In this document: positions 4,656 to 53,501 of the stretch, in pieces
Position numbering within the stretch: the first letter of the stretch is position 1
Layout: each line of letters opens with the position of its first letter
Virus record (IMG/VR): IMGVR_UViG_3300020021_000179
Coordinates: 1 to 57,562 of that record
Length of the DNA: 57,562 bases
Direction: 5' to 3' (one strand)
Origin: a virus
Program-made: the position numbers and the translations under genes
The notes under the pieces: generated by a model
The model's database searches: none
Seen by the model: the letters and a program-made list of their open reading frames with translations, nothing else
What the model was told of the DNA's origin: nothing

Positions 4656-5513
4656 ATGAATCCAAGCACAATGACCGCCCCGTCTAACGGGCATGCAAAA
4701 AAAGTCAATATCGAATTTCCGGTGCCCACAAAAAAGGGTAAGGATACCAAGGGGGATATTGTATTCCAGGTTTTCAAGACTTTTAATTATGACATGTTCA
4801 ATATCATGTCCAGTAACCGAAACATCAACCTAAACCATGTGAGCCGGCTGGTTGATTCCTTCAAGCAAAAACATCTGGTTTCTCCCATTATTGTAAATGA
4901 AAAATTTGAAGTGATTGACGGCCAGAATCGTCTTGAGGCCAGTATTCAAACAGGGATGCCGATTCTTTACATCGTTGTTCCGGGTTACACCATTGATGAG
5001 GTTGTAAAATATAATGTCAACCAAAAGAACTGGCTTAAAATGGACTATCTCCATTCTTTTTGCGCTCAGGGAAAAAGGAATTACTTGGAGTTCAAGGAAT
5101 TTATGGACCACTTCCCCGATTTCCAGATCAAGGCTGCGGAAAGGATTATTGGCCTTCGGAGTGGAGCGAGTGCGAATCGTAAGGTTATTAACGGTAAGGA
5201 AGTTCAGATGAAGGATTTTGAAAATGGTAAACTGGTAATACCGAATATTACCAAATCATATATCATCGCCCGCAGGATTATGGACTTCAAACCATTCTTC
5301 GCAAATTTCAATACACCCACGTTCATTTCAACGCTCGTCCCGCTCCTTTATAAAAGCAAGGTTTATGATCATAAGGAAATGCTTCATAAACTCAACAATT
5401 GCCCTATACGGCTTACGGACTGCGTGAACGTGGCCGCTTACCGGATGCTCCTGGAAGATATTTATAACTACAAAAGACAAAAGGATAATAAGGTATCCTT
5501 CAAATACGAATAA
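4656..5513 (+). CDS. ParB N-terminal-like domain protein
   Basis: This 285-residue protein has the ParB/sulfiredoxin-type domain near residues 35-110: NINLNHVSRLVDSF, then a P-I-I-V strand, and DGQNRLEA at about 88-95, which corresponds to the G-x-x-R box (here G-Q-N-R). Such proteins bind DNA and CTP in partitioning, or act in phages as regulators or nucleases. No ParA is present in the window, so plasmid-type partition is unproven. The second half has no recognised domain. It opens the replication-initiation cluster. Confidence 0.75.
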   Translation: MNPSTMTAPSNGHAKKVNIEFPVPTKKGKDTKGDIVFQVFKTFNYDMFNIMSSNRNINLNHVSRLVDSFKQKHLVSPIIVNEKFEVIDGQNRLEASIQTGMPILYIVVPGYTIDEVVKYNVNQKNWLKMDYLHSFCAQGKRNYLEFKEFMDHFPDFQIKAAERIIGLRSGASANRKVINGKEVQMKDFENGKLVIPNITKSYIIARRIMDFKPFFANFNTPTFISTLVPLLYKSKVYDHKEMLHKLNNCPIRLTDCVNVAAYRMLLEDIYNYKRQKDNKVSFKYE

Positions 5514-7389: not shown

Positions 7390-7590
7390 ATGAAAGTGAT
7401 TAAAAAAATTCCATCATTATCCCAAGGTGATATTTCAAGATTTTGGAGTTACGTTAATGTATGCTCAGACATGAATAAATGTTGGGAATGGAATAAGACT
7501 TTAAACCCCGGTGGATATGCACAAATGGGCAAACGGTGTTTCCGTAGTGGTGACGACAATGAACGAGCTGTAAAAATAGTATGGAACTAA
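7390..7590 (+). pseudogene. truncated HNH homing-endonuclease-like remnant
   Basis: The 66-residue ORF matches only the N-terminal recognition part of HNH homing-type endonucleases: DISRFWSYVNV, then CWEWNKTLNPGGYAQM. The His-Asn-His catalytic half that should follow is absent. The ORF runs straight into the methyltransferase gene, whose ATG at 7581 lies within its last codons. I read it as the decayed remnant of a mobile nuclease beside the methyltransferase. Alternatively it is a small independent protein. Confidence 0.6.
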
Positions 7591-8498
7591 ATAAGATAAT
7601 ATTAGGGGATTGCCTGGATGGGTTAAAAGGCCTGCCATATAATAGCGTGGATTGCTGCGTCACTTCACCGCCTTATTTCGGGTTAAGGGATTATGGCCAT
7701 GCCGATCAGTTAGGGCTTGAGGAAACGCCGGATGAATATGTTTCAAATATGGTTAAGGTATTTGGTGAAGTTAAAAGAGTTTTAAAAAAGGAAGGGACTC
7801 TGTGGTTAAACATTGGTGATTCGTATTATGGGTCAGGAAAAGGAGGCGGAGGCTTGAATAATAACGATAAAGGAACAAAAATTAGCAGTTTAAACCAAAA
7901 CAGAAAAGCAGTGCAAGGGCTAAAGGCAAAGGATTTAATCGGTATCCCCTGGATGCTGGCCTTTGCTCTCCGGGCTGACGGATGGTATCTCAGGCAGGAT
8001 ATTATTTGGGCGAAGCCGAACCCGATGCCCGAAAGTGTTACTGACAGGTGTACGAAATCACATGAATATATTTTTATGCTTTCAAAATCGGCAAAGTACT
8101 TCTATGATGCGGAATCTATAAAAACAGCCATGACTGGAAGCGATCACGATAAGAGGATGCGCGTTAGTATAAAAAGATTCCCTACTGATATGATTAATGG
8201 CATACGCTGCGCAAACGATGTAATCCGAGAAATGGCAAACAAGCGAAGTGTATGGACTGTTAACCCCAGACCCTATTCAGAAGCCCATTTCGCCACGTTC
8301 CCGGAACGGTTGATAGTTGACTGCATAAAAGCCGGATGCCCCGAGAATGGGCTTGTATTGGATCATTTCATGGGATCCGGAACTACGGCACTGGTAGCGC
8401 GAAAGCTGAACAGAAACTTTATCGGGTTTGAACTGAATCCGGAGTATATAGAAATCGCAGAGAAAAGACTGAAAAAAGAATTGGGAATGTTTCTATAA
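7581..8498 (+). CDS. DNA methyltransferase (N4-cytosine/N6-adenine, beta-type order)
   Basis: This 305-residue S-adenosylmethionine-dependent DNA methyltransferase has catalytic motif IV, TSPPY, at residues 28-32, and the SAM-binding motif HFMGSGTTALVARKLNRNF at about 262-280. The catalytic-before-SAM order and the length fit the beta class. TSPPY is found in both N4-cytosine and N6-adenine enzymes. No cognate restriction enzyme is adjacent, so it is a solitary phage enzyme, probably protecting phage DNA or marking it for regulation. The recognition site cannot be deduced. Confidence 0.92.
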   Translation: MELNKIILGDCLDGLKGLPYNSVDCCVTSPPYFGLRDYGHADQLGLEETPDEYVSNMVKVFGEVKRVLKKEGTLWLNIGDSYYGSGKGGGGLNNNDKGTKISSLNQNRKAVQGLKAKDLIGIPWMLAFALRADGWYLRQDIIWAKPNPMPESVTDRCTKSHEYIFMLSKSAKYFYDAESIKTAMTGSDHDKRMRVSIKRFPTDMINGIRCANDVIREMANKRSVWTVNPRPYSEAHFATFPERLIVDCIKAGCPENGLVLDHFMGSGTTALVARKLNRNFIGFELNPEYIEIAEKRLKKELGMFL

Positions 8499-11503: not shown

Positions 11504-12181
11504 ATGAGTACGAATAAAGACGATATACACCCTATCCAATCCCACCAACCAACATCCAAGGAGAGAGAAGGTTATGATCTTGTCGCTCATCTGCATAGGC
11601 AAAAGAGGTTTTCAGTAGATACATTCGGCCCGGGAGATAGATTACTGGGAGTACTTGATCACATTCGCCGTGAGTTAAAGGAAATCGAATCTAATCCAGA
11701 GGATTTATCAGAATGGATTGATCTGGTATTATTGTCCTTTGATGGAGCGTGGAGACGCGGGTTTACTCCTGAACAGATTGCAAAAGCGTTGGCGGAAAAA
11801 CAATCTAAGAATGAAAAGCGCAAATGGCCTGATTGGAGAACTCAGGCAAAAGATAAGGCGATTGAGCATATTAAATCCGAACCAACATCCAAGGAAAACC
11901 TGACAGGGGAACAGGGAGTGGATGATTATAAGAAAAGATATCATCAAGCCCAAGAGGATGTGTGGAAACTTGAATCCGAAATCACCTCTCTCAAAGAGCA
12001 ACTAGCCAGTGCGGGGGCAGTAAGGTGGACGGACATGCATATGTATGCAGCTTTTGAACAGGGATGGGATAATAGTTATCGTGAGCATTTAAATAAACCA
12101 GGAAGCAAATCTCTTAATATTGATTTTGAAAAACTAAAAGAATCAATTTTCCTTAAACCCCAACCACCCATATCTAAATAG
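11504..12181 (+). CDS. dATP/dGTP pyrophosphohydrolase-like (DUF550) protein
   Basis: This 225-residue protein has a domain at about residues 32-110 with FGPGDRLLGVLDHIRRELKEI, then EDLSEWIDLVLLSFDGAWRR, ending KRKWPDW. This is the helical dATP/dGTP pyrophosphohydrolase (DUF550) pattern, in which Glu/Asp of ExxE and ExxD bind Mg. Such enzymes hydrolyse dATP or dGTP to the monophosphate and adjust the nucleotide pool. A linker and a coiled-coil C-terminal segment follow. The phrase PTSKE occurs twice (about 16 and 127), an internal repeat that is also visible in the DNA. Confidence 0.8.
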   Translation: MSTNKDDIHPIQSHQPTSKEREGYDLVAHLHRQKRFSVDTFGPGDRLLGVLDHIRRELKEIESNPEDLSEWIDLVLLSFDGAWRRGFTPEQIAKALAEKQSKNEKRKWPDWRTQAKDKAIEHIKSEPTSKENLTGEQGVDDYKKRYHQAQEDVWKLESEITSLKEQLASAGAVRWTDMHMYAAFEQGWDNSYREHLNKPGSKSLNIDFEKLKESIFLKPQPPISK

Positions 12182-13962: not shown

Positions 13963-14613
13963 TTGTTAGAGAAACGGGATCAGATCATAGGGGATTTATT
14001 CATCAGCAAGGATTTCAATGATTTAATAGGCAGGATTGAACCGGCTCATCTTCGCGACGATTTAAAGCAGGAAGCCATCTGCATTTTACTTGAACTCCCT
14101 TACGAGCGTGTCGAACAGCTTCACAGTAACGGCGAACTTTCATTCTACCTGGTTCGGTGCGTCTTCAATATGGTCACCAATAAGTACCATCCATTCTTTA
14201 AGAAATTCAGGGACGTTAATATAGAATATAAGGAAATGCTTTCCGAATCATGGTTTGAAGCCATTGATAATAGCGAAGACTTTTATAAGCCCGATGGATT
14301 TGCAAAGCGTCATGATTGCGATGAATCAGAAGCCTTTCGGGATAATGAACGCAATCAGAAGGAAGAACTGGAAGACTACACGCTTGAACAAATCGAAAGC
14401 CTGTACTGGTATGACCGGGATCTGATTAAAATCTACCTGCAAATCGGAACCTACCGGGGGATTCAGGGACTGACCGGCATCCCTTACCAGAGCTGTTACA
14501 AAAACATCCAAAAATCACTGGAGATACTCAGGCAAAAAGCACTTGCCCCTAAACCTATTTTCACAAAAGAGGAACTAAACTTTATACAAAATGGCGACAA
14601 AAAAGATAGTTAA
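13963..14613 (+). CDS. phage sigma-70-like protein
   Basis: This 216-residue protein resembles Bacteroidota phage sigma-like proteins. The N-terminal half reads RIEPAHLRDDLKQEAICILL and ELSFYLVRCVFNMVTNKYH, a region-2-like helical layout. The C-terminal half reads TYRGIQGLTGIPYQSCYKNI (HTH, region-4-like). No ATG fits; the best start is TTG at 13963. It may redirect host RNA polymerase to the late genes that begin about 8 kb downstream. The 5' flank (13883-13962) remains open in frame, so the start is uncertain. Confidence 0.65.
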   Translation: MLEKRDQIIGDLFISKDFNDLIGRIEPAHLRDDLKQEAICILLELPYERVEQLHSNGELSFYLVRCVFNMVTNKYHPFFKKFRDVNIEYKEMLSESWFEAIDNSEDFYKPDGFAKRHDCDESEAFRDNERNQKEELEDYTLEQIESLYWYDRDLIKIYLQIGTYRGIQGLTGIPYQSCYKNIQKSLEILRQKALAPKPIFTKEELNFIQNGDKKDS

Positions 14614-15022
14614 AAAGAGGCCCGAACTGCTGGCTATATTCGACACGCGATTATCAAGCGGAGATCCGGTAATTATAGGAAATCCTGCAAAGAAAACACA
14701 CTGGATCAGCACGACCGTTCAGTACATCATCCTAGCCGCAATAGTGGTCTTATGCTTTCGGGGTTGTGATTATCACCTGCAATTCCCTAAGCTAACGATG
14801 AGCTGGTATATGGTCGTACCGATAGCCCTTTCACTGGCTTATGTCTGGGTGGATGTGTTCAAGATTGGAGTGGTAAAGCCATTTAACTGTATTTCTTGTA
14901 TGGCCGGATGGTTTAGTTTGATCATTGCCTTTGCCTTTCATGTTCCGCTGTGGTTCTTTTACGCATCGATCGGAACGTTTACTGGGGCTATTTATTCATC
15001 AATCCGTATGCGCTGGTTATGA
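14591..15022 (+). CDS. membrane protein with CxxC motif (DUF1360-like)
   Basis: This 143-residue protein has four hydrophobic spans (about 42-56, 72-88, 103-117 and 119-134) and the motif KPFNCISCMAGW at about 96-107. The CxxC plus the C-terminal RMRWL resembles small phage membrane proteins of DUF1360 type. Its ATG overlaps the sigma-like gene by 23 bp and its stop overlaps the first glycosyltransferase start (ATGA), placing it at the head of the glycan cassette. Confidence 0.6.
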   Translation: MATKKIVKKRPELLAIFDTRLSSGDPVIIGNPAKKTHWISTTVQYIILAAIVVLCFRGCDYHLQFPKLTMSWYMVVPIALSLAYVWVDVFKIGVVKPFNCISCMAGWFSLIIAFAFHVPLWFFYASIGTFTGAIYSSIRMRWL

Positions 15023-16065
15023 AGATACTTTCTTACATACGAGCCAGTTCAGCGCCTTGCTACCATCGCCTCATAATGCCGATTATGATGATGGACAACC
15101 GGGATGTGCTGTTCGCAAACGAGTTCGTTGAGGAACATTATACTGATGAGCTGGATATTGTAATCTATAACCGGGTTATCGGAGATGAATATATTGACAA
15201 GATTAAGGTGCTTAGGGAAAAGTTTGGGTTTAAAATAATTGTCGATGTGGATGATATCTGGCATTTGGATGATCACCATATTCTAGCCAAATATTACATA
15301 GAAGAACAGTTCGCGGCAAGGCAGATAAGACAGATTCGTAATGCGGATATAGTCCTGACCACGCATGCCCGTATGGCGAAGTATATCAGTTCCTTCAATT
15401 CCAATGTTCATGTATGCCCGAATGCTATTCCACATCAGGGGCAGTTTGATATCACACGCGAAGAATCAGAATTCACGCGTCTGTTCTGGCAGGGATCTAT
15501 AACACATAAGGAAGATATACGAATCCTTACCCGGCCCATTGAAGCCCTTGGACCAGTGGCCGAACGAATTAAAATGGTTCTTGGTGGATATACGCGGTAC
15601 GACGACAATGAAACGCCAAAGACAGCAGAAGAAAAGCAGACTGAAGCCGAATGGAGTGAAATGGCTATGATCTTCACGGCCAAGGCGAAACATCAGTATA
15701 AGCTATTGCCACCCGAACCGGTAACGAATTATTACAGCATGTACGCCCATGCTGATATATGCCTTGTTCCGCTGGTTAACAGCTTCTTTAACCGGATGAA
15801 ATCAAATCTGAAGGTACTGGAAGCTGCAAACCTAAGCCTGCCCGTAATCGCCTCCGACGTGCATCCCTATAAGGATTTGCCAATCCGGTATTGCAAGCAT
15901 CCCAATGACTGGATCAAGCATATCACTGATTATTTAAAAGAACCCGAAAAGGCAAAGGAAGACGGATTGAGGCTTAAAGATTTCTGCAATGAGTTTTACA
16001 ATTTTTCAAAGATAAACCTTGAAAGAAGACAAATTTTGGAAAATTGTAAAAAACAGATAGCATGA
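15019..16065 (+). CDS. GT4-like glycosyltransferase
   Basis: I start at ATG 15019 (MKILSYIRAS), which overlaps the previous TGA, rather than the frame-open ATG at 14950 inside that gene. The 348-residue product shows a two-domain GT-B pattern: an N-terminal fold with VDVDDIWHLDDHH and NADIVLTTH, a hinge with RLFWQGSITHKEDI, and a C-terminal donor site with FNRMKSNLKVLEAANLSLPV then IASDVHPY. These fit GT4-type sugar-nucleotide enzymes. It is probably cytoplasmic. It opens a run of glycan genes. Confidence 0.8.
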   Translation: MKILSYIRASSAPCYHRLIMPIMMMDNRDVLFANEFVEEHYTDELDIVIYNRVIGDEYIDKIKVLREKFGFKIIVDVDDIWHLDDHHILAKYYIEEQFAARQIRQIRNADIVLTTHARMAKYISSFNSNVHVCPNAIPHQGQFDITREESEFTRLFWQGSITHKEDIRILTRPIEALGPVAERIKMVLGGYTRYDDNETPKTAEEKQTEAEWSEMAMIFTAKAKHQYKLLPPEPVTNYYSMYAHADICLVPLVNSFFNRMKSNLKVLEAANLSLPVIASDVHPYKDLPIRYCKHPNDWIKHITDYLKEPEKAKEDGLRLKDFCNEFYNFSKINLERRQILENCKKQIA

Positions 16066-16295
16066 GTCCGGAAAACAAAGCAGTCTTTCAGGAATGCAGG
16101 CAATATTATTTAATCATGCTTACCGAGGGTAGGCCGCGCGGGATTTCATATCAGCAAAGAATGAACCTAGAAAAAGCAATAGCAGAAGAATTTCAATCCG
16201 GGTTCACGGCTAACCGGGATTGTGAAGCATGTATTAATTCAATGATGTCATTGGCCTATTATTATTACGATACTTATGAAGCAGGAAAACATTAG
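16062..16295 (+). CDS. small CxxC protein, copy 1 of a tandem paralogue pair
   Basis: This 77-residue protein has the core EFQSGFTANRDCEACINSMM followed by LAYYYYDTYEAGK. The next gene repeats the same pattern (EFMPGYPAPHDCGNCLFNLV, then LYEKFDAYMA), so the two are paralogues by tandem duplication. The CxxC may bind metal or be redox-active. Coupled to the glycosyltransferase by ATGA. Confidence 0.6.
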   Translation: MSPENKAVFQECRQYYLIMLTEGRPRGISYQQRMNLEKAIAEEFQSGFTANRDCEACINSMMSLAYYYYDTYEAGKH

Positions 16296-16635
16296 GTTTC
16301 TTCAAGACAACAGAGCTTGTTACCGCGAGGTAAGCAATGTGGTTGGTGGTCGTTCGGCGCAGATTGCCCACCGGATAACGGGTGAATTACTTCAGATACT
16401 CCGCGAAGAATTTATGCCCGGTTACCCGGCGCCACACGATTGCGGTAACTGTCTGTTTAATCTGGTTACCGTGCTTTATGAAAAGTTTGACGCATACATG
16501 GCAGCAAACCTGGAGCCGGTCGTGGTCGCGGCAACGTTCCCTAAGAATGATGCGCCTGCTGACCCGGACTATGCAGCGTTTCTGAAATGGAAGGCATCGC
16601 AAGGCAAACCGAAAAGGAAGGCAAAAGCAAAATGA
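16276..16635 (+). CDS. small CxxC protein, copy 2 of a tandem paralogue pair
   Basis: This 119-residue paralogue of the preceding gene has an added C-terminal extension rich in Lys/Ala/Pro (ASQGKPKRKAKAK). The start overlaps copy 1 by 20 bp. The shared part is helical with one CxxC; the basic tail suggests nucleic-acid or protein binding. No known family was recognised. Confidence 0.6.
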   Translation: MKQENIRFLQDNRACYREVSNVVGGRSAQIAHRITGELLQILREEFMPGYPAPHDCGNCLFNLVTVLYEKFDAYMAANLEPVVVAATFPKNDAPADPDYAAFLKWKASQGKPKRKAKAK

Positions 16636-16703
16636 CGTACTGGATAATAGGATTATTGTTACTGGCTGCCGTTGTGGCTACACCTAAAGCGAAAGACGAA
16701 TGA
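16632..16703 (+). CDS. micro membrane peptide (23 aa)
   Basis: The 23-residue ORF consists of one hydrophobic span (YWIIGLLLLAAVVAT) and a charged tail. Both ends overlap the neighbouring genes via ATGA, which supports translation. Confidence 0.4.
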   Translation: MTYWIIGLLLLAAVVATPKAKDE

Positions 16704-16915
16704 TTATCAGAAAAGGATTAAGGTTTGAATCAAGAAACTTCGCGGCTAATATCGAAGTTCAGGAAGTTAAAAAAGAAACCAATGAAATCGTTTTACTTAT
16801 GATGCCAAGCGATAGACATGATTTTATAGTTACGTGGCCGTTGGATGAAGTGGTGAATGGATTTGTAACTAAAATATATAAAGAAATCGGAACGGAAACA
16901 AATTTTGGAATATGA
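16700..16915 (+). CDS. hypothetical protein
   Basis: This 71-residue probable beta-rich soluble protein is ATGA-coupled at both ends. No motif was seen. It belongs to the small-ORF filler between glycan genes. Confidence 0.55.
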   Translation: MIIRKGLRFESRNFAANIEVQEVKKETNEIVLLMMPSDRHDFIVTWPLDEVVNGFVTKIYKEIGTETNFGI

Positions 16916-17109
16916 ATAAGATAGAATTATCACAGATTGCATCCAAACTCAAAAGTGATTGCATATCTCTATTGAGAAAATTTGAAGATGAAACAGGATT
17001 ACCAGCAAAGATTATTGCAGAAGGCAATTACAATCTTCAAAATGGGACGCAATATTACTCGTGCAATATAGATATACATATCAAATCATATCAAAGATTA
17101 GAGCCTTGA
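16912..17109 (+). CDS. hypothetical protein
   Basis: This 65-residue protein has an N-terminal helix (KIELSQIASKLKSDCISLL). Its stop overlaps the putative TTG start of the following glycosyltransferase (TTGA), like the ATGA overlaps elsewhere. Confidence 0.5.
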   Translation: MNKIELSQIASKLKSDCISLLRKFEDETGLPAKIIAEGNYNLQNGTQYYSCNIDIHIKSYQRLEP

Positions 17110-17813
17110 ACCTGCACCATTTTTACCATATATACGCAGACGGTGATTGCGAAACGCCAATCCGGGAACACATCCGGGCGCTGAAAGAATCAGGACTCTA
17201 CGAAGCGCTTACTTCGTTCCATATCGGATTTGTTGGTCAGCCCCATAAGATTCAGGAGGTATTCAATTGCCTGAATTCTCTGGAAGTTGTTTTCCATGTG
17301 GCAGGTAAATCCAATGACGGATGGGAGCAAGTGACCATGATACCCATGTGGGAATTCAGTAAGATAAACGAAGGCGCTATTTTATATGCGCACACAAAGG
17401 GGGCCAGCAATCGCAGCGAAGTCAATGAACGATGGAGAAGGTCAATGATCTACTGGAACGTAATCAGGTGGCGGGATGCCGTGGCAGAGCTGGCAACGCG
17501 GGCAGAAGCCTATGGCTGTCACTGGATGCAACCTACGCTGAACATGCCCGAACATACGATGGGTAACTTCATGTTCGCCGGGACTTTCTTTTGGTTGCGT
17601 TGCGAAACGATGGCAAGATTTCCCAAGCCAGCTCTTACTCACCGGCATGAGGCAGAGGGATTTTGTGGCTACGGCTGGCATGAGAAACCGTATTCCGTTT
17701 ACGATCCAACGCCCTACTTTCCTAATTCAGCGCCATTCGCAGACCAGTGGGTAAATCATCCGCATGGTATTAATTCATTACCCGAATATTATCCACCAAA
17801 ATTTTATCCATGA
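17106..17813 (+). CDS. glycosyltransferase-like protein
   Basis: The frame is open from GTG 17061, but TTG 17106 overlaps the previous stop (TTGA) and starts at the conserved point LHHFYHIYADGD, so I choose it. The 235 residues match a family found in glycan clusters: FYHIYADG at the N-terminus, IGFVGQ, then ILYAHTKGASNRSE (about 91-104), WRRSMIYWNVI, and FAGTFFWLRCETM late in the protein. I regard it as a sugar-transferring enzyme; the donor is unknown. Confidence 0.65.
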   Translation: MNLHHFYHIYADGDCETPIREHIRALKESGLYEALTSFHIGFVGQPHKIQEVFNCLNSLEVVFHVAGKSNDGWEQVTMIPMWEFSKINEGAILYAHTKGASNRSEVNERWRRSMIYWNVIRWRDAVAELATRAEAYGCHWMQPTLNMPEHTMGNFMFAGTFFWLRCETMARFPKPALTHRHEAEGFCGYGWHEKPYSVYDPTPYFPNSAPFADQWVNHPHGINSLPEYYPPKFYP

Positions 17814-17977
17814 TGAAGATTTTAAAACCATTGTTAGCAATTGGATTTGCATTATCCATATTGAATATGATAATCAATATCTGTAATCAAAATATAGAAG
17901 GCGCATTAGGATGGGCGGATTCTGTTATATATAGCTCTATCGCTATGTCATTAGCATATAAATGGATCAAGATATGA
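17810..17977 (+). CDS. small membrane protein (55 aa)
   Basis: The ATG at 17810 overlaps the previous TGA. The ORF has a hydrophobic N-terminal half (LLAIGFALSILNMIINI) and a second span near the C-terminus (VIYSSIAMSLAY). It ends at 17977, overlapping the next glycosyltransferase ATG. Unknown function; perhaps a membrane partner of the glycan enzymes. Confidence 0.5.
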   Translation: MMKILKPLLAIGFALSILNMIINICNQNIEGALGWADSVIYSSIAMSLAYKWIKI

Positions 17978-18708
17978 ATTTCTTACTTGGCGGACGCATG
18001 GGTGATCTGATTCATCAGCTTTGGGTGGTAAAGAATACCCCCGGACGACATGATCTATTCGTAACAGATAAACGCGAATTACATTCGGACGGGTTCCAGC
18101 TACCACTTAACGAAACGTGTTTGGAATTGTATCCGATATTGGATCGGCAAGATTGGTTTGGAGAACTTATTGACGAAGATATGGGATTGTTTAAAGAAGA
18201 CCAAACAGGCGAATACATTAACCTCAATATGTGGCGCAGATACGCTTACTCAGCAAGCTGGACGCCATTGCTTGCCAATACTTTCGGACTGCAACCCAAC
18301 GGAGAACCATGGATATTTTTACCAAAGATAACCGGGTGGGAAGATAAGATAGTCTTTCATTGCTCGGTTCACGCGGCCCGTCGCGGAGCCTGGAATATAC
18401 CGATAGACAAATACAACGATGAACGCGCTGTCTTCGTGGGCAACGCGGAGGAATATAGAATCTTTGGATACGAGATGGCATTCTATGAACCTAAGTCTTT
18501 ACTGGAGCATTTCAATATTATTAACTCATGCAAGTTCTTTGTAGGCAATCAGTCCATGCCGCTGGCAGCAGCGCATGCAATGGGAGTACCCAGGTTAGCC
18601 ATACTAAACAAGGTAGATGAAATCGCATACATGGGTGAGGAAAAATGGCATAAGAACTTCTATTGGATTTCGGATGGTAATTTTTTTTTCGAGGGTATAA
18701 ACTATTAA
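17974..18708 (+). CDS. GT9/heptosyltransferase-like glycosyltransferase
   Basis: The start is placed at ATG 17974 (MNFLLGGRMGDLIHQLWVV), overlapping the upstream stop; ATG 17962 is an alternative. The 244-residue product shows GGRMGDLIHQL, the typical G-x-x-GD opening of ADP-heptose-type GT-B enzymes, and a late CKFFVGNQSMPLAAAHAMG (about 187-205) with the donor-binding S/T...AAHA layout. It could add a sugar to LPS or a surface glycan. It is shorter than typical GT9 proteins (about 330-350 aa). Confidence 0.65.
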   Translation: MNFLLGGRMGDLIHQLWVVKNTPGRHDLFVTDKRELHSDGFQLPLNETCLELYPILDRQDWFGELIDEDMGLFKEDQTGEYINLNMWRRYAYSASWTPLLANTFGLQPNGEPWIFLPKITGWEDKIVFHCSVHAARRGAWNIPIDKYNDERAVFVGNAEEYRIFGYEMAFYEPKSLLEHFNIINSCKFFVGNQSMPLAAAHAMGVPRLAILNKVDEIAYMGEEKWHKNFYWISDGNFFFEGINY

Positions 18709-18738
18709 CGCGTTGGTTAATTTCTTTAACAAAGTAAT

Positions 18739-19104
18739 ATGCATCTTACTTCTGGTGATATCTATAAGCACCTTGTTGATAACCTTACCGGTAGGAATAA
18801 TTTATTTACTGAGCGGCGGGAAGAAACGGGAATTACCGTTATTGCCAATGATATGGGCAGCGAATCTAAAAGGAAATCAATGGATACAATAGCAGAATTA
18901 TTTGACAAGCTAACAATTGTGAATCTTAAAATCTTTAAGTATGAAGATATCAAGCGCATGCCGTGCGTACCGGACAAGGATATAGCGGATGCTACACGCG
19001 CAACCAATATACTCAATACGCAAAGAGGGCAATTAAAGAATGAAATCAACGAGTTTTTTAAATCCGGAACATCGGAAGTAAAATCATATGGAAAAACTAT
19101 TTAG
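18739..19104 (+). CDS. small helical protein of the glycan cassette
   Basis: The core of this 121-residue protein is AELFDKLTIVNLKIFKYED then DATRATNILNTQRGQLKNEI, a helical layout I have seen in small proteins encoded among sugar-biosynthesis genes (DUF6165/DUF4254-like, not certain). The 3' end overlaps the C-methyltransferase gene by 17 bp. The function is unknown. Confidence 0.55.
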   Translation: MHLTSGDIYKHLVDNLTGRNNLFTERREETGITVIANDMGSESKRKSMDTIAELFDKLTIVNLKIFKYEDIKRMPCVPDKDIADATRATNILNTQRGQLKNEINEFFKSGTSEVKSYGKTI

Positions 19105-20317
19105 CCTTGGAGAGATTTACGTGAGCGACTTCCTGAAGCCGGATGAGTTCGCTAAACCAGAACGGCTGCACGAACTGGAATTGGTCATGGACAAATCCAT
19201 AGGAGCGGCAAGGCTGAAGACAACCAAACCCCTTGGAGATATGTTCGGAAAATACTGGTATCGCAGTGGGACGAATGCCAGTATGAAAGCCGCGTTAAAG
19301 AATGTCGTGGATTCTATATTGCCATTTGTTTATTATGGACCCAATGATGGGGTATTGAGATTAAGCCGATGGTTGGATATTGCCAGCAACGATGGCACAC
19401 TATTAAGTCTTGTTCCAAATACTTTCAGTAGATTAGGTTTTGATCCTTGCGAAGGTGATATTTATGAACAAGCTAAAAAACATGCAGATATAATTCAAGG
19501 CTATTTTAATCCATTTACATTTAGGATAACTGGTGAAAGATTTAATGTTATCACAACAATCGCCATGTTCTACGATCTGGAAGACCCGGACACATTCATC
19601 AAAGATGTTTACGAAGTACTGGACGACGAAGGTCTGTGGGTGCTGCAGTTAAGCTATACACCATTGATGTTAAAGCAATTGGCATTTGATAACATTTTAT
19701 CCGAGCATGTATTTTATCACACGCTCGGCAGCATGAAGACCCTACTGGAACGCAACGGTTTCAGGATCGTGGACTGTACGCTTAATGATGTGAACGGGGG
19801 AAGCATGCGGGTATTTGTTCGCAAAGAGAAAGCAAGCGTGAAGAACTTCGGAACCCAGGCATACCGTGATGTATGCAACTACCGGATCGAATCCCTGTTA
19901 TCGGAAGAACTTTCCAACGGCGTTTCCTTCCCGGAAGTATGGCAGAATTTTCACAGAGACATTTTAAAACTGAAAGCCGAAGTGGTGGACTTTATCACCT
20001 ATGCTAAGAAGCGGGGGAAGACGGTCATGGGCTATGGGGCATCAACAAAGGGCAACACGCTCCTGCAATTCTTTGGGCTGGATCATACCATGATTGATGC
20101 GATCGCAGAGCGACAGGAATGCAAATGGGGACTGAAGACTATCGGGACTAACATACCAATTATCAGCGAACAGGAAATGAGAGAACGCAAACCGGATTAC
20201 CTATTGATATTACCATGGCATTTTATTCAATCTTTTGAAGAAAGAGAGGCCGAATATCTCAACAATGGAGGCAAGATGATTGTTACTAATCCAGTGTTCA
20301 TTATAATAGAAAAATGA
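19088..20317 (+). CDS. NDP-sugar C-methyltransferase-like protein, N-terminal zinc pair missing
   Basis: This 409-residue protein has the multi-domain layout of sugar C-methyltransferases (TylC3/NovU type). The N-terminal part reads LFSLGEIYVSDFLKPDEF, the SAM motif is LDIASNDGTLL (about 97-107), with FYDLEDPDTF later. The C-terminal domain has MGYGASTKGNTLLQFF (about 313-328). Members normally start with a CxxC zinc pair just before the LGE strand; here the gene begins after that point. The reaction would be methylation of a keto-sugar nucleotide carbon, which fits the neighbouring glycosyltransferases. Confidence 0.8.
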   Translation: MEKLFSLGEIYVSDFLKPDEFAKPERLHELELVMDKSIGAARLKTTKPLGDMFGKYWYRSGTNASMKAALKNVVDSILPFVYYGPNDGVLRLSRWLDIASNDGTLLSLVPNTFSRLGFDPCEGDIYEQAKKHADIIQGYFNPFTFRITGERFNVITTIAMFYDLEDPDTFIKDVYEVLDDEGLWVLQLSYTPLMLKQLAFDNILSEHVFYHTLGSMKTLLERNGFRIVDCTLNDVNGGSMRVFVRKEKASVKNFGTQAYRDVCNYRIESLLSEELSNGVSFPEVWQNFHRDILKLKAEVVDFITYAKKRGKTVMGYGASTKGNTLLQFFGLDHTMIDAIAERQECKWGLKTIGTNIPIISEQEMRERKPDYLLILPWHFIQSFEEREAEYLNNGGKMIVTNPVFIIIEK

Positions 20318-20350
20318 AAGTAGTGAATTATCAAAACAATATCACGCAGC

Positions 20351-20572
20351 ATGAAACGATACATTCTATTTACTGGAAGCAATTACTATCCATCAGGCGG
20401 CTGGGAAGACTTCAATGCCACCTCCGATGATATTGCAGACTTAGCGGATATTATTAAAGCTGACTTTACTGAGCAGGAATTAAATACATGGTGGCACATA
20501 CTGGACACAAAAACAATGGATATAATTTATGACATACCACTCCCAAGCAGGACAAGACAAATGGGTTCATGA
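20351..20572 (+). CDS. hypothetical small phage protein
   Basis: This 73-residue acidic protein begins KRYILFTGSNYYPSGGWEDF, an opening I know from small phage proteins of unknown role. Its last 44 bases overlap the FkbM methyltransferase gene in another frame. Confidence 0.6.
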   Translation: MKRYILFTGSNYYPSGGWEDFNATSDDIADLADIIKADFTEQELNTWWHILDTKTMDIIYDIPLPSRTRQMGS

Positions 20573-21122
20573 TATCATTGGTGATAAAGGTTTCTTCGTA
20601 GACATTGGCGCTTACGACGGAGTGCAGACAAGTAATACCTATGCACTGGAATACCTGGGATGGAAAGGGATATGCGTGGAAGCCGAAGTAAATGCGTATA
20701 ACAAATGCATCCGGGAAAGAACAAACGTTAGCGTCAATAAGGCTGTGACCAACTATAAGGGAATAGCCATGTTTGCCGGGGATAGGATAGGCGGGGAAAT
20801 ATCAGTGAAGTGCGACACATTGCAAGGAATTCTAAGGGATTATACAGCGCCAAGTGTCATAGACTATTTAAGCATGGACATTGAAGGCCATGAGTTCACG
20901 GTATTAAACGCATTTCCTTTCGATGAGTTCCGGTTCAAGCTAATGACAATCGAACACAACCTGTACTGTGACGGCCCGACAAACAAGGACGCGCTGTACG
21001 AACTATTAACACGTAACGGTTACATCAGAGTGGTGGAAGACGCGCCATGCCTTGACCCTACCCCGGCCTGGTATATGCAGCCGTATGAAGACTGGTACCG
21101 GCATGAATCATTTAAAATATAG
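20529..21122 (+). CDS. FkbM-family methyltransferase
   Basis: This 197-residue protein has SAM-binding motif I at FFVDIGAYDGVQTSNT (about 22-37), then WKGICVEAEVNAYNKC, and the late motif YLSMDIEGHEFTVLNAFPF (about 114-132), diagnostic of FkbM-type O-methyltransferases. In glycan loci such enzymes methylate sugar hydroxyls. It follows a hypothetical gene with a 44-bp overlap. The acceptor is unknown. Confidence 0.85.
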   Translation: MTYHSQAGQDKWVHDIIGDKGFFVDIGAYDGVQTSNTYALEYLGWKGICVEAEVNAYNKCIRERTNVSVNKAVTNYKGIAMFAGDRIGGEISVKCDTLQGILRDYTAPSVIDYLSMDIEGHEFTVLNAFPFDEFRFKLMTIEHNLYCDGPTNKDALYELLTRNGYIRVVEDAPCLDPTPAWYMQPYEDWYRHESFKI

Positions 21123-21125
21123 TAT

Positions 21126-21383
21126 ATGACAAAAGAACAGAAAGTATTAAGGGATGTGATCATGATGGCCGTTTCTAATCATGAAAAGAATACGTTGGAA
21201 AGAATATCCGGTATTACAATGACAAATGAGGGTGATGAATTTACTGGAGGGCGCTCATGGGATTTCAACTTCATGACTGATCCAACGCTTCATTTGGTTA
21301 ATTTAAATGAGAAAAGTAAAGAGGGCAATATGCATGCATGGGTGAGAGCGGAAATAATCGAATCTTCATTTATTAAAATATGA
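21126..21383 (+). CDS. hypothetical protein
   Basis: This 85-residue soluble protein has no recognised motif. It ends by ATGA overlap with the next small ORF. Confidence 0.55.
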   Translation: MTKEQKVLRDVIMMAVSNHEKNTLERISGITMTNEGDEFTGGRSWDFNFMTDPTLHLVNLNEKSKEGNMHAWVRAEIIESSFIKI

Positions 21384-21550
21384 AAGAGCCAATTGAAATA
21401 GTAAATGATGAATTACAATTCGCAAAGCATCGTATTTCAACATTGGAAAATATCCTTAGAATTATTGTTACTCATTATTTGGGGCATACATGGGAAATAG
21501 ATAGGCAAACTCTTGAAGTATGGCTTAGTGATTTAAAGATAAAGAAATGA
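21380..21550 (+). CDS. small hypothetical protein (56 aa)
   Basis: The 56-residue ORF has a helical N-terminus (VNDELQFAKHRISTLENILR, coiled-coil-like) followed by a short aromatic segment. It overlaps both neighbours by ATGA, so it is very likely translated. Confidence 0.5.
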   Translation: MKEPIEIVNDELQFAKHRISTLENILRIIVTHYLGHTWEIDRQTLEVWLSDLKIKK

Positions 21551-22389
21551 AAATACTATTCATAACCCGTGATTCTGAACGCTGTGGTGTAGCAGACTAC
21601 GGAAGACGGTTATTCTCCATCCTGAAACCAGCATTGGACATCACGCTCCATGAGTCAGACGGCGTAAGCCCAATCAATTACGAAGGCTATGACGTTGCTC
21701 TATACAACTACCACCACGCCACACTACCAAATGTGGATTGTTTTAACCGGAACATAAAACACGTAGCCCTATTCCATGAAGCCTTCATGAACATAACGCC
21801 AGACGTTATCATTCGCGTGGCAGGGATAGCAAGACCGCTGATCGGAAACTACTACGCAGAGAAGCCCCTAAACAGAATACCGGTTATCGGCTCCTTTGGA
21901 TTTGGGTTCCCAGATAAGAACTTTCCGGGCATTGCAAAGCTGGTTACCGAACAATTCAAAGAGGCCAGACTAAGGCTTAACATCCCATTCGCTGAGTTCG
22001 GCGATAACGACGGGGCCATGGCAAGGAATGAGGCATACAAATGCCAGCAAGTAATTCAGGGAACGGCTATAACACTGGAAGTCAATCACAACTTCCTCAG
22101 CCAAACAGAACTCCTGGAATGGAACCGGGCCAACGACCTGAATGTATTCCTTTACGCTGACAGCCACGGACGCGGGATAAGTTCGGCAACAGACTATGCC
22201 CTAAGCGTACGTCGACCTATAGCCATCAGCAGATCGGAAATGTTCAAACACCTACCACGTGAAATATGTGTGGACAACGCAACGCTCCCCGATTTACTGG
22301 AATATGGCGTTGAATTCCTTAACACGGTTTACCTGCAGAACACCAATGAAAGGCTTATCAATCAAATCACCGAATATTTAAACAAATAA
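21547..22389 (+). CDS. GT4-like glycosyltransferase (short)
   Basis: This 280-residue protein begins KILFITRDSERCGVADYGRR, the CGVADY opening common in GT4-type mannosyl or glucosyl transferases, and shows a Rossmann-like layout with a late segment DSHGRGISSATDYALSVRRP that resembles the donor-site region. It has about 90 residues fewer than typical members, so it may be a degenerate or specialised variant. It is the last glycan gene before the packaging genes. Confidence 0.65.
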   Translation: MKILFITRDSERCGVADYGRRLFSILKPALDITLHESDGVSPINYEGYDVALYNYHHATLPNVDCFNRNIKHVALFHEAFMNITPDVIIRVAGIARPLIGNYYAEKPLNRIPVIGSFGFGFPDKNFPGIAKLVTEQFKEARLRLNIPFAEFGDNDGAMARNEAYKCQQVIQGTAITLEVNHNFLSQTELLEWNRANDLNVFLYADSHGRGISSATDYALSVRRPIAISRSEMFKHLPREICVDNATLPDLLEYGVEFLNTVYLQNTNERLINQITEYLNK

Positions 22390-22391
22390 AT

Positions 22392-22604
22392 ATGGGAAGA
22401 GTTAATGTTTTTATTCACGGGAAGGAGAAACTTTCTTACACCAGTATTAGCGAAGATGATAATACGGAAATATTTGCAAAAAATGCCATTAGATCATCGG
22501 AATATGGAATGGCAATAGAATGCAAAGATCGAGTTATCTATTTAGGAGCTGATTTGTGCAGAAATGCGATTATCGAATATATACCATTTAAACAAATAAC
22601 ATGA
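22392..22604 (+). CDS. hypothetical protein
   Basis: This 70-residue beta-rich small protein lies two bases after the glycosyltransferase stop and overlaps the next gene by four bases. No motif was recognised. Confidence 0.5.
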   Translation: MGRVNVFIHGKEKLSYTSISEDDNTEIFAKNAIRSSEYGMAIECKDRVIYLGADLCRNAIIEYIPFKQIT

Positions 22605-22783
22605 ACTACATCTATGAAAGAAAGCTGGAAGAAATAACCGATAAGGCTTACGAAGACAAGCGACAACTTAAAAACAAGCTGGCCTACAACTGGTATGATA
22701 TGCTTAACGCTAAAATCTGTTATATCGGTATCGGATTTACCATCGGTCTTATCCTTACTTATCTGTTAATGAGGAACGCTTAA
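22601..22783 (+). CDS. small tail-anchored membrane protein
   Basis: This 60-residue protein has a charged helical N-terminus (YERKLEEITDKAYEDKRQLK) and a C-terminal transmembrane segment (IGIGFTIGLILTYLLM), a tail-anchored topology. It is the last small gene before the packaging genes. Confidence 0.55.
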   Translation: MNYIYERKLEEITDKAYEDKRQLKNKLAYNWYDMLNAKICYIGIGFTIGLILTYLLMRNA

Positions 22784-22817: not shown

Positions 22818-23240
22818 ATGGGTAAGCATAAATATATTGACAATCCGGAAAAATTAATGGATTTGTTCCTTTCTTATGAAAGGTATATCAAGACCAATCC
22901 TAAGCTAAAGAATAATTTTGCTGGCAAAGATGCAATAGAAGTTCATTTTGAATTAGAGAGACCATTAACTATGGAAGGCTTTGAAACTTATACATTTAGG
23001 CAAGGCTTCAATGCTGATCTGGGTGATTATTTCTCCAATAAGGACAACCGTTATGCGGATTATGCGGCTATCTGTTCGCGTATTAAGAAAGAAATCCGCG
23101 CTGATCAAATTGAAGGCGGCATGACGGGCATATACAATCCATCTATTACCCAACGATTAAATGGACTTGTTGAAAAGACTGATAATAAAAATGAGAATAC
23201 AGAAATTAAGAAGAAGTATAAGCTCACAATGAATTTATGA
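22818..23240 (+). CDS. terS: terminase small subunit (Gp3-package-like)
   Basis: This 140-residue protein starts KYIDNPEKLMDLFLSYERY, then TFRQGFNADLGDYFSN and YADYAAICSRIKKEIRADQI, the pattern of Gp3-type DNA-packaging small subunits. Small terminases recognise phage DNA and regulate the large subunit. It overlaps the large-subunit gene by four bases (ATGA). The start follows a recurrent motif also found before other late genes. Confidence 0.8.
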   Translation: MGKHKYIDNPEKLMDLFLSYERYIKTNPKLKNNFAGKDAIEVHFELERPLTMEGFETYTFRQGFNADLGDYFSNKDNRYADYAAICSRIKKEIRADQIEGGMTGIYNPSITQRLNGLVEKTDNKNENTEIKKKYKLTMNL

Positions 23241-24493
23241 CCACTGAAGAAGTGGAAATAGAATGGCAGCGGCCATTTGTTTACCCATATCAGCAAGCAA
23301 TCCTGGACTGTCCCGCAAGATATACCGTATGCGAGGCATCCACAAAGGTCGGAAAAACAGCCAGCCATATCATTTGGCTATTCGAGCAAGCAATCAAACT
23401 TAAAAACGAGAATGAATCAGTGTGGTGGGTAGCCCCTACAGTTGCTCAGGCTAAGATCGCATACAACCGCATGAAGGTTCAAATTAGCGATAAGGGTTTC
23501 GTATCGTTCAATGAAACCAATAGGATCATAACTCTTGTTACAGGCGCTAAGATAGAGTTTAAGACTGCCGAAAACCCAGACAACCTATACGGTGATGATG
23601 TATATGCCTTCGTATTCGATGAATTTACCAGAGCCAGGGAGGCGGCATGGTTTGCGCTCAGGTCTACCATTACAAGTACTGGAGGAAGCGGTAAGTTTAT
23701 AGGCAACGTTAAGGGCAAAAAAAATTGGGGACATAAGCTGGCCATGAAGGCAAAGACGGGTGAAGATCCTGATTTTGTCTATTTCAAGATTACCGCTTAT
23801 GATGCAGCCGATGCCGGTATGAAAACCAAGGATGGGCGACCATTTCTCGAAGAAATCACAGCAGCTAAAAGAGATTTACCAGAATACATATTCAATGAAC
23901 TGTATCTGGCTGAAGCCTCAGAGGATGGCAGCAATCCATTTGGACTAAAGTTTATTGCCCAATGCTGTCAGGCGGCTTTGTCTATTGAAAAAAGCGTTTG
24001 TTATGGTATTGATGTCGCGCGTAAGGTTGACTTTGTATCTATTATAGGCATTGATAAGTTGGGCGTTATGAGCCATTATCATAACTTTAATAAGGTTGGT
24101 TGGGATCAAACTATCAACACCATCAAATATCTACCAAATGTTCCAATGGCTATCGACAGCACTGGAGTTGGGGATGTAGTTGTTTCACAGGTGGAGATAG
24201 CGCAATCCCAGATCGAAGCATTCATATTTACCGAAAGAAGCAAGCAAACAATTATGGAAGGATTGGCAATAGCCATACAGGGAAGAAAGATTATTATTGC
24301 CGATGATGGCAATGTTCAAACCGGCACCGGAAAACTTAGACATCAGCTAGAACAGTTTGAATTTGAATATACCAGAACAGGAATACGATATTCTGCACCC
24401 GACGGAGAACACGATGATGATGTTTGCGCCCTTGCCTTAGCATGGCATAAATGGGGAACCGCTGCATTATCCGGAAACATATCAGTATGGTAA
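23237..24493 (+). CDS. terL: terminase large subunit
   Basis: This 418-residue packaging motor has an N-terminal ATPase with Walker A ASTKVGKT (34-41) and Walker B AFVFDEF (124-130) with the catalytic Glu129. The C-terminal RNase-H-like nuclease shows YGIDVARKVD (about 255-264), AIDSTGVGD (about 305-313) and HDDDVCALALAW (about 391-402), which supply the metal-binding Asp residues. The enzyme translocates and cuts DNA at the portal. Length fits the family. Confidence 0.93.
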   Translation: MTTEEVEIEWQRPFVYPYQQAILDCPARYTVCEASTKVGKTASHIIWLFEQAIKLKNENESVWWVAPTVAQAKIAYNRMKVQISDKGFVSFNETNRIITLVTGAKIEFKTAENPDNLYGDDVYAFVFDEFTRAREAAWFALRSTITSTGGSGKFIGNVKGKKNWGHKLAMKAKTGEDPDFVYFKITAYDAADAGMKTKDGRPFLEEITAAKRDLPEYIFNELYLAEASEDGSNPFGLKFIAQCCQAALSIEKSVCYGIDVARKVDFVSIIGIDKLGVMSHYHNFNKVGWDQTINTIKYLPNVPMAIDSTGVGDVVVSQVEIAQSQIEAFIFTERSKQTIMEGLAIAIQGRKIIIADDGNVQTGTGKLRHQLEQFEFEYTRTGIRYSAPDGEHDDDVCALALAWHKWGTAALSGNISVW

Positions 24494-51988: not shown

Positions 51989-52744
51989 ATGGGAACCGTG
52001 AAGATTTATTACTGGAAAGAGAAAAAGAATTTTGGAGACTTGCTTGGGGGGTTGTTACTGAAAAGATTCACACGCCTGGAATCGCAATGGTCAACAGCAA
52101 AGGAAGCCGATATAGTTATTGTCGGCTCTGTGTTGGAGCATTTACCAGCGGATTGGAAAGGTGTAATCGCGGGCGCCGGAAAGCTGCATGAAAAATCAAA
52201 ACTCGGTTTCCCTAATGCTAAAATCTTAGCACTACGCGGGCCATTGACAGCAAGGGGATTTAAAGGCAGCTTTGCACTGGCTGATCCGGGATTACTGGCC
52301 GACGAACTGGTACCAATTGAAGAAAAGGAATTTGATTTAGGAATAGTTCCGCACTGGACAGATACAACGCTGGAAAAAAATCCAGTATTTAAACAGTTTA
52401 ATCCAAAGATTATTCGGGTATCGGACGACCCCTTAAAAGTGATCAGCGAAATCGGAAGGTGTAAAAAGATAGTCAGTTCATCCCTTCATGGGATCATTCT
52501 GGCCGATGCTTTCGGCATACCACGCCGGATTGAAATTCCACCACGGTCACTCAGTCACCCGAATCAGGAAGGCGGTTTGTTCAAATGGCAGGATTATAGT
52601 TCAAGCCTTGGCGTAAAACTGGTAATCGGAACAACACAATTAATTAACCGGAATAAAATAATAGAACTTCAGCATGAGTTATTCGACGTTTTCGAGGAAG
52701 TGGCGGCGATTTTTAATCACCATAGGATTAATTCACAGGCCTAA
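51989..52744 (+). CDS. polysaccharide pyruvyltransferase-family protein
   Basis: This 251-residue protein begins VKIYYWKEKKNFGDLLGGLL, then VIAGAGKLHEKSK, LALRGPLTARGF (about 80-91), and the late KIVSSSLHGIILADAFGIP (about 161-179), the standard pattern of polysaccharide pyruvyltransferases that add pyruvate ketals to glycans using PEP. It follows the endolysin and precedes another glycosyltransferase, with a 71-bp overlap. Confidence 0.85.
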   Translation: MGTVKIYYWKEKKNFGDLLGGLLLKRFTRLESQWSTAKEADIVIVGSVLEHLPADWKGVIAGAGKLHEKSKLGFPNAKILALRGPLTARGFKGSFALADPGLLADELVPIEEKEFDLGIVPHWTDTTLEKNPVFKQFNPKIIRVSDDPLKVISEIGRCKKIVSSSLHGIILADAFGIPRRIEIPPRSLSHPNQEGGLFKWQDYSSSLGVKLVIGTTQLINRNKIIELQHELFDVFEEVAAIFNHHRINSQA

Positions 52745-53501
52745 GATTAGTTTATTGATTCCGTTTTCGTCCACTGACCATATCAGAAGGAGGAACTTTA
52801 AATGGTTATTGGAATATTGGAGAAGCGAACTGCCACACGCTGAAATTATCATCGGTAAATCGCGCAGTAAAGTATTCTGCAAGGGAGAAGCACTGAATCA
52901 TTGCCTGAACAAGTCCAACGGAAAGGTGCTGGTTGTGCTGGATGCAGATGCTTATATGCCGGGCCACATCATTAACCGGTGCGCCAATAGAATACTGGAA
53001 GAACTTGATCACGGATTATGGTATGTTCCTTACCGGCATTTGTACCGACTGACGCAGGAAATAACGGATCTTGTTATCCATTCAAACCCGGAATATCCAT
53101 TTAGAATACCCGTTCCACCACCGGATTGCTGGATAGAAAATCAGGGGGATATATCAAAATATGGAAGCCGCTACGGGGCTATGATAACCATATTCCCGCG
53201 CGAAGCGATCAGGACGATCAAATGTTTCGACGAACGATTTAAGGGTTGGGGTGGTGAAGATATTGCTTTGCTCCGGGCGCTGGATACTCTGTATGGAAAA
53301 CACAAGACGACACGCAATGCGGTCTTTCACTTGTGGCATCCCTTCCACGGGGATACGTACAGGACAAGGGTTTGGGATAGCCAGAAATATCCCGGTAATA
53401 ACAGCCAGCTGGCGAATAAATATAATTCAGCTACGAGGAACCTGAAGAAAATGAATGAGATCATAAGAGAGAGCCACGACTACTATAAGAAGAATAACTA
53501 A
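52674..53501 (+). CDS. glycosyltransferase (GT2/GT7-like)
   Basis: This 275-residue protein has ISLLIPFSSTDHIRRRN, the DXD-type motif VVLDADAYMPG (about 87-97), and YGAMITIFPREAI followed by FKGWGGEDIALLRAL (about 190-204), a signature of beta-1,4-galactosyltransferase-like C-terminal domains. The start overlaps the pyruvyltransferase out of frame by 71 bp; a downstream start would lose the strand at about 25. It is the last plus-strand gene before a terminator. Confidence 0.8.
   Translation: MSYSTFSRKWRRFLITIGLIHRPKISLLIPFSSTDHIRRRNFKWLLEYWRSELPHAEIIIGKSRSKVFCKGEALNHCLNKSNGKVLVVLDADAYMPGHIINRCANRILEELDHGLWYVPYRHLYRLTQEITDLVIHSNPEYPFRIPVPPPDCWIENQGDISKYGSRYGAMITIFPREAIRTIKCFDERFKGWGGEDIALLRALDTLYGKHKTTRNAVFHLWHPFHGDTYRTRVWDSQKYPGNNSQLANKYNSATRNLKKMNEIIRESHDYYKKNN

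Follow-up and report, generated by a model that had tools for sequence, protein, structure and literature searches.

The Gtr serotype-conversion cassettes of temperate phages, which combine a GtrA flippase, GtrB and a membrane glucosyltransferase, are phage-borne glycan genes with the potential to alter the host surface. In Corndog-like cluster O phages, three glycosyltransferases and an O-methyltransferase are reported to modify the capsid and tail tube (Freeman et al. 2023, as cited in PMC11600133 and PMC12363180). The mycobacteriophages Corndog, Che8 and Myrna group soluble glycosyltransferases with a methyltransferase and use host sugar nucleotides. Gene turnover beside the terminase is documented in a Mu-like cryoconite phage, where DNA methyltransferases were inserted into or deleted from the packaging module and one variant carries an acetyltransferase (PMC7468147). 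Clusters of glycosyltransferase genes in phages are already known, and so are variable slots next to the terminase. Here we describe a cassette of sugar-active genes running into the large terminase gene (TerL) of IMG/VR virus record IMGVR_UViG_3300020021_000179, a linear stretch of 57,562 bases that was analysed whole (hereafter the window). Our preferred reading, held with slightly less than even confidence, is that the cassette is a cytoplasmic glycan-building module set among the packaging genes, in one operon with them, of a phage of Bacteroidota, whose acceptor would most likely be one or more virion proteins.

The locus resembles the mycobacteriophage systems in its grouping of soluble glycosyltransferases with methyltransferases and its use of host sugar nucleotides, but it belongs to a phage of an unrelated host phylum, couples a glycosyltransferase (GT_A) into the terminase operon, and includes a C-methyltransferase (CMT) and exchangeable cargo; modification of the virion is here a proposed role. 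Compared with Gtr cassettes, it has many more enzymes, lies before the terminase with no integrase as a neighbour, and yielded neither a flippase nor a membrane transferase. Clustered glycosyltransferases also occur in the Phapecoctavirus/Stephanstirmvirinae cluster (phAPEC8 gp071-gp074), one member matching GT_A at about 30% identity across 94% of its length; unlike the window genes, they lie beside a primase and a DNA polymerase gene in a 148-kb lytic myovirus, and no description of their function was found in the literature consulted. The cryoconite slot shares with our relatives a turnover between near-identical phages, but its cargo is mostly DNA methyltransferases whereas theirs is mostly glycan enzymes. 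For Bacteroidota phages, no description of a glycosyltransferase linked to the terminase and accompanied by an exchangeable glycan slot was found in a library of open-licence papers, subscription papers lying outside the search.

The first gene of the cassette, GT_A, is by sequence a glycosyltransferase: residues 28-365 of its GTG-start form match the PHROG glycosyltransferase family phrog_7162 over the whole domain (E=4e-55), and K261, S262, L264, K265 and E268 are invariant across 21 sequences, in an NxxKSxLKxxEA-type motif with the donor-binding Lys/Glu of GT-B-type enzymes. The family was collected through relatives of TerL; a scan of viral contigs with GT_A patterns gave zero matches. A GT_A homologue lies upstream of TerL or overlaps it in 24 of the 36 non-redundant TerL lineages whose sequence extends at least 1.2 kb upstream of that gene, and GT_A distances correlate with TerL distances (Mantel r=0.83, p=1e-4, 25 lineages; r=0.71 within the 16 nearest). 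On this comparative evidence, GT_A is an old phage gene and not cargo; its inheritance has been mostly vertical, with loss or relocation in some lineages. Across 251 genomes of the family to which the prophage host Mucilaginibacter pedocola belongs, a strong GT_A match occurred in one only, the prophage itself. Glycosyltransferase genes of phages are commonly regarded as scattered morons with a role in host conversion or DNA protection, whereas this one has been passed down together with the terminase in dozens of lineages.

Eight relatives (L067-L070, L073, L074, L162 and L163) share the succession of a sigma-like open reading frame (ORF), a CxxC membrane protein, GT_A, a small CxxC protein, a variable interval and TerL; L078 retains most of it, and in distant relatives GT_A often overlaps or almost touches TerL. 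The original prediction had proposed a search for the same order in related prophages, and sugar genes indeed stand at the same place before TerL in homologous loci, present and with no decay seen. Its framing of the locus as an enlarged serotype-conversion cassette is not supported, as GT_A is common among these phages and coinherited with TerL, and neither an integrase nor a membrane-bound Gtr enzyme was found in the window.

The interval between GT_A and TerL is a slot with contents that change among relatives. Its length ranges from less than 100 bases to 4.3 kb in relatives and reaches 7.2 kb in the window, the longest seen. Pfam assignment of the 46 interval ORFs of 14 relatives, in which one ORF can match several families, recovered sugar-related families (six GT2, three PLOD-type glycosyltransferases, four hexapeptide acyltransferases and one DegT aminotransferase), small-molecule methyltransferases (Methyltransf_23 three, Methyltransf_24 two, CmcI two, TylF one, FkbM one) and small-terminase-like genes. 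Neither the sugar-related families of the slot nor its small-molecule methyltransferase families were among the 25 families listed for 86 control ORFs elsewhere in the same loci, a listing beyond which lay 17 more families. Five contigs with TerL genes 95-99% identical (L075, L076, L077, L079 and L080) carry one of three methyltransferases as the last gene before TerL, with 25-29% identity across types; where these last genes differ, TerL is still 96-99% identical. In two of the contigs, L077 and L080, the glycosyltransferase gene before the last one is shared (83%). The similarity of their DNA stops close to where that gene ends and is regained no more than a few bases from where the last gene ends, which identifies the difference as an exchange of cargo at gene borders. 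In the pairs of relatives tested, dN/dS for GT_A and cargo was 0.05-0.19, indicating purifying selection, by which the genes are maintained once acquired. Such one-at-a-time swaps between near-identical phages, next to a glycosyltransferase inherited with TerL, allow the idea of diversifying selection on a glycan made by the phage to be tested, and natural pairs of the same phage with one enzyme exchanged could help to find the acceptor and the benefit. A small, apparently exported protein is encoded in the slot before TerL in two contigs (L079:4338-4829 and L080:8168-8611); SprB repeats match two interval ORFs, taken as these two proteins.

The slot could alternatively hold loose morons, unrelated genes gathered in a recombination-prone site beside the terminase with no joint pathway. 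The variable packaging-module regions of the Mu-like cryoconite phage (PMC7468147) would agree with this explanation, as would the part of the relatives' cargo that is not sugar-related. We nevertheless consider it rather improbable, given that the slot repeatedly holds glycosyltransferases, acyltransferases and small-molecule methyltransferases, that the genes are translationally coupled, and that homologues of GT_A, GT_D, FkbM, CMT, the DUF4254-like protein and GT_C co-occur in a phage of a different type. This phage (L012) was found among 65 CMT-related loci in viral contigs (up to 57% identity), a set drawn from IMG/VR that may include non-viral contigs, L028 being doubtful. GT_D homologues lie near CMT in 20 of the 65 loci (about 13 non-redundant), FkbM homologues in many and DUF4254 genes in several. 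L012, a 71-kb contig, belongs to a larger phage type with PhoH-like and dUTPase-like genes, as read from its sequence, and carries GT_A, DUF4254, GT_C, two GT_D, FkbM and C-methyltransferase genes, the DUF4254 gene directly adjoining the GT_C homologue. Its GT_A is only 28% identical to that of the window while FkbM (54%) and C-methyltransferase (53%) both lie above 50%; joint transfer of the cargo from one type of phage to another is therefore probable. Sequence reading also identified GDP-mannose 4,6-dehydratase-like and epimerase-like genes in L012, a gene set which points to GDP-4-keto-6-deoxymannose as the methyl acceptor but does not prove it.

The original prediction counted six cassette enzymes: four glycosyltransferases, a sugar C-methyltransferase and an FkbM methyltransferase. 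Sequence or fold supports all except the last glycosyltransferase (GT_D, at 21547), which is unproven, and the family matches together with recurrence in relatives place the cassette beyond chance. CMT matches PF08484, the S-adenosylmethionine-binding domain family PF13489 (4e-11) and, in the PDB, TylC3 (5e-35) and TcaB9 (3e-24). It resembles both along its whole length and shares with them a C-terminal YGA-x-x-KG motif and a Glu-His motif (SEHVFYH, aligned with HEHLSY in TylC3 and DEHFFL in TcaB9), which we take to be the active site of these enzymes. Unlike them, it has no cysteine in its first 60 residues and no PF08421 match, and thus lacks the N-terminal zinc-binding cysteines; nor does a dedicated deoxysugar pathway lie beside it. 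FkbM scored above the curated cut-offs (PF05050, 60.2 versus 22.7 bits; TIGR01444, 39.1 versus 37.7). For GT_B and GT_C, no family profile match was found (Pfam included for GT_C) and PDB sequence searches gave nothing credible. Structure prediction, which had been proposed for each enzyme, was run for these two, and both models gave matches with TM-scores at or below 0.5; we take this as moderate structural support and treat the assignments as fold-level leads and not as proofs. The AlphaFold model of GT_B (ma35ba2a243ae; pLDDT 71, pTM 0.75, 4 sequences; pLDDT below 50 in residues 190-235, the C-terminal fifth) resembles in Foldseek the nucleotide-diphospho-sugar-transferase folds of IspD, GlmU, GtrB and ArnC (E 1e-4 to 1e-3, TM-score 0.35-0.5), so that GT_B is probably a GT-A-type nucleotide-sugar transferase. 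That of GT_C (m33580052e4c5; pLDDT 71, pTM 0.78) resembles the GT9 heptosyltransferases WaaC, WaaF and TibC (best E=3.6e-5, TM-score 0.40-0.50), pointing to a probable GT9-like glycosyltransferase. GT_D gave zero matches in Pfam, PHROG, NCBIfam and PDB; one of the 14 members of its family has a weak GT1 match (Glycos_transf_1, E=0.0084). Kinship between GT_D and GT_A was considered and rejected, GT_D showing no relation to GT_A profiles. A DUF4254-like gene at 18739-19104 had been overlooked earlier.

We propose that the module consists of the clade-common GT_A, flanked by two CxxC proteins, one a membrane protein and the other small, and of a slot for exchangeable sugar enzymes extending from GT_A to the terminase. 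The cargo present here would assemble and transfer a branched, methylated sugar, in a reaction order that we infer: CMT would methylate a host-supplied nucleotide diphosphate (NDP)-4-keto- or 3-keto-6-deoxysugar, soluble GT_B, GT_C and perhaps GT_D would add sugars onto a residue placed by GT_A, and FkbM would O-methylate the sugar product. With virion proteins as the most likely acceptor, a cargo swap would change the sugar type of the particle. The computed basis of this scheme comprises the gene identities except that of GT_D (GT_B and GT_C at fold level only), the position and coinheritance of GT_A, and the cargo swapping and purifying selection seen in relatives. As originally noted, flippase, polymerase and sugar-nucleotide synthesis genes were not found in the window, and host precursors would therefore be needed.

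Virion proteins are slightly favoured as the acceptor, with the host envelope close behind and DNA unlikely; the lean towards the virion comes from the coinheritance and coupling of GT_A with the terminase, from the serotype-conversion hallmarks that were not found, and from the mycobacteriophage precedent. Under host remodelling, which we regard as possible with distinctly less than even confidence, the enzymes would alter lipid-linked or lipopolysaccharide precursors at the inner membrane face, leading to superinfection resistance or preventing re-adsorption to debris. The enzymes are of polysaccharide type, GT_C resembles lipopolysaccharide heptosyltransferases, the DUF4254 protein and a pyruvyltransferase encoded elsewhere in the window suggest cell-envelope glycans, and GT_A could be tethered by its neighbour, the CxxC membrane protein. 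Integrases are present in two relatives (G005 and G006), and a prophage of the L163 type lies inside an isolate genome. Against this, no flippase, polymerase or membrane-bound Gtr-type transferase was found: no cassette enzyme has a transmembrane-like segment and the small membrane ORFs have at most three. Furthermore, the genes are coupled to the terminase and not near an integrase (PF00589 was not found in the 57,562-base window), and GT_A is coinherited with TerL, not sporadic.

Glycosylation of phage DNA, a hypermodification against restriction that the original prediction had also raised, seems very improbable. It would accord with the roughly 30% identity of GT_A to Phapecoctavirus glycosyltransferases, four genes of this kind lying near primase/helicase, DNA polymerase and adenine methylase genes, and with an N6/N4 DNA methylase gene in the window. 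A hydroxylated base would be needed, however, and the thymidylate-synthase-family hydroxymethylase (PF00303) was not found in the window or in six other phage records, which are possibly incomplete; such a base might also arise by other routes. The module is not beside replication genes, and we know of no C-methylation or pyruvylation in phage DNA glycans.

Several observations weigh against glycosylation of the virion by a conserved module. Twelve of the 36 TerL lineages are without GT_A next to TerL, and GT_A is therefore not indispensable. Some slot cargo is not sugar-related (a DNA methylase, an HNH protein and an SprB-repeat protein), so the slot is not purely glycan-specific, and the cargo methyltransferases may not all act on sugars. 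The acceptor and the donor sugar are both ones that we infer, and a cultured close relative was not found among 50,697 phage records. A broader and more doubtful possibility is that a large uncultured group of Bacteroidota phages glycosylates its own particles through a terminase-linked, clade-common glycosyltransferase and varies the glycan, C-methylated sugars included, by exchanging single enzymes in the slot. Experiments may be feasible, as relatives lie in a Mucilaginibacter isolate whose genome is sequenced.

All ORFs named in the original prediction proved intact, on the + strand and at their predicted positions (table below). The small coupled ORFs that it noted, several of them membrane proteins, are joined with their neighbours by 12 four-base overlaps (11 ATGA and 1 TTGA) from 14591 through TerL, which argues for a single translationally coupled unit; late expression would follow from this coupling and from the position. 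Transmembrane-like segments occur in the ORFs at 14591-15022 (three), 16587-16703, 17810-17977 and 22601-22783, and since the cassette enzymes have none, their site of action would be the cytoplasm or the inner membrane face. A decaying cassette or a recent foreign insert was ruled out: the ORFs are intact, and GC content, overall and at third codon positions (GC3), resembles the rest of the phage. Scans for sigma-70 promoters and terminators gave counts equal to those in shuffled sequences, and the full Bacteroidota promoter pattern was at chance level; the Bacteroidota -7 element TANNTTTG is rarer than expected on the + strand (7 observed versus 19.0 +/- 4.0 expected) and absent from it between 1 and 22912.

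Features of the module and of the second site after the endolysin gene (positions in the window)
Feature	Position	Strand	Evidence or remark
Sigma-70-like small protein, module head	13963..14613	+	Homologue at same place in relatives, 31-42% identity
Membrane protein, NCxxCM motif, three transmembrane-like segments	14591..15022	+	Directly upstream of GT_A in closer relatives
GT_A, clade-common soluble glycosyltransferase, GT-B, GT4-like	15019..16065	+	phrog_7162
s1, small CxxC protein	16062..16295	+	Family adjoins GT_A in relatives
s2, s1 paralogue with basic C-terminal tail	16276..16635	+	
Three coupled small ORFs	16587..17109	+	16587-16703 transmembrane-like; 16700-16915 homologue in L070; 16912-17109
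GT_B, probable GT-A-fold glycosyltransferase	17106..17813	+	TTG start; YAHTKG, GTFFW motifs; relatives in L028, L049, L053
Small membrane ORF	17810..17977	+	
GT_C, probable GT9-like glycosyltransferase	17974..18708	+	Homologues in L012 and six TerL relatives
DUF4254-like protein	18739..19104	+	PF14063 E=1.7e-5, just under cut-off; adjoins GT_C here and in L012
CMT, sugar C-methyltransferase, TylC3/TcaB9 type	19088..20317	+	PF08484 4e-43
Two overlapping small ORFs, reality uncertain	20314..20572	+	20314-20430, 20351-20572
FkbM-family methyltransferase	20529..21122	+	PF05050 3.5e-16; TIGR01444; 54% identical in L012
Two coupled small ORFs	21126..21550	+	21126-21383, 21380-21550
GT_D, candidate glycosyltransferase, unproven	21547..22389	+	Often beside C-methyltransferase in viral contigs
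Two coupled small ORFs, second with transmembrane-like segment	22392..22783	+	
Putative small terminase TerS	22818..23240	+	Position, overlap with TerL
Large terminase TerL, downstream border of cargo slot	23237..24493	+	phrog_2 1.5e-27; relatives up to 75%
Polysaccharide pyruvyltransferase, second site	51989..52744	+	PS_pyruv_trans PF04230 6.5e-11
GT_E, galactosyltransferase-like glycosyltransferase, second site	52674..53501	+	Glyco_transf_7C PF02709 1.8e-5; phrog_1721 2e-11

At the head of the module, the Sigma70_r2 match has E=0.0064 for one of 22 module proteins scanned together, making the sigma assignment weak. The membrane protein that follows (14591-15022) gave zero matches in Pfam, PHROG, NCBIfam and the phage records, and has homologues in L067-L070, L073, L074, L162 and L163. 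In a 15-member alignment of the s1 family, the first Cys of CxxC is invariant and the second nearly so. This small CxxC family, duplicated here (16062-16635) and often with a basic tail, recurs with the module around GT_A in many of these phages (L067, L069, L070, L073, L078, L089, L109, L112, L162 and L163). No homologue of 20351-20572 was found in the relatives' loci searched. TerS is 45% identical to an ORF of L162 located upstream of its sigma-like gene.

The pyruvyltransferase and further glycosyltransferase predicted after the endolysin gene both gained family matches. No homologue of the pyruvyltransferase was found in the relatives' loci checked, and GT_E is absent from the records of eight relatives; the pair is therefore a separate, lineage-specific addition, and a single conserved island of all the window's glycan genes was ruled out.

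The window encodes a terminase, a portal, a tape-measure-like protein, a pectate-lyase-like protein and a CHAP endolysin, nearly all genes being on the + strand. A near-DNA search against the 50,697 phage records returned zero matches, and the best TerL identity there was about 31% at most. TerL relatives were found in uncultured viral contigs (up to 75% identity) and in prophage-like stretches of Bacteroidota genomes, namely a Mucilaginibacter metagenome-assembled genome (63%), the isolate M. pedocola TBZ30 (61%), other Bacteroidetes and Fibrisoma; on account of these stretches, the host is probably a Bacteroidota bacterium.

Elsewhere in the window, a dATP/dGTP pyrophosphohydrolase is encoded at 11504-12181 (PF04447, 4e-21), in what we take to be the family of MazZ from 2-aminoadenine phages; a PurZ-sized ORF was not noticed nearby. 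The N6/N4 DNA methylase gene (7581-8498; PF01555, 3.7e-55) lies in the early region. A protein encoded at 4656-5513 has a weak GmrSD N-terminal (DUF262-like) match and a counterpart in L162. A tail-fibre-like protein with DUF4082 and PKD domains (44069-46654) and the pectate-lyase-like protein (48040-49653) both have signal- or lipoprotein-like N-termini.

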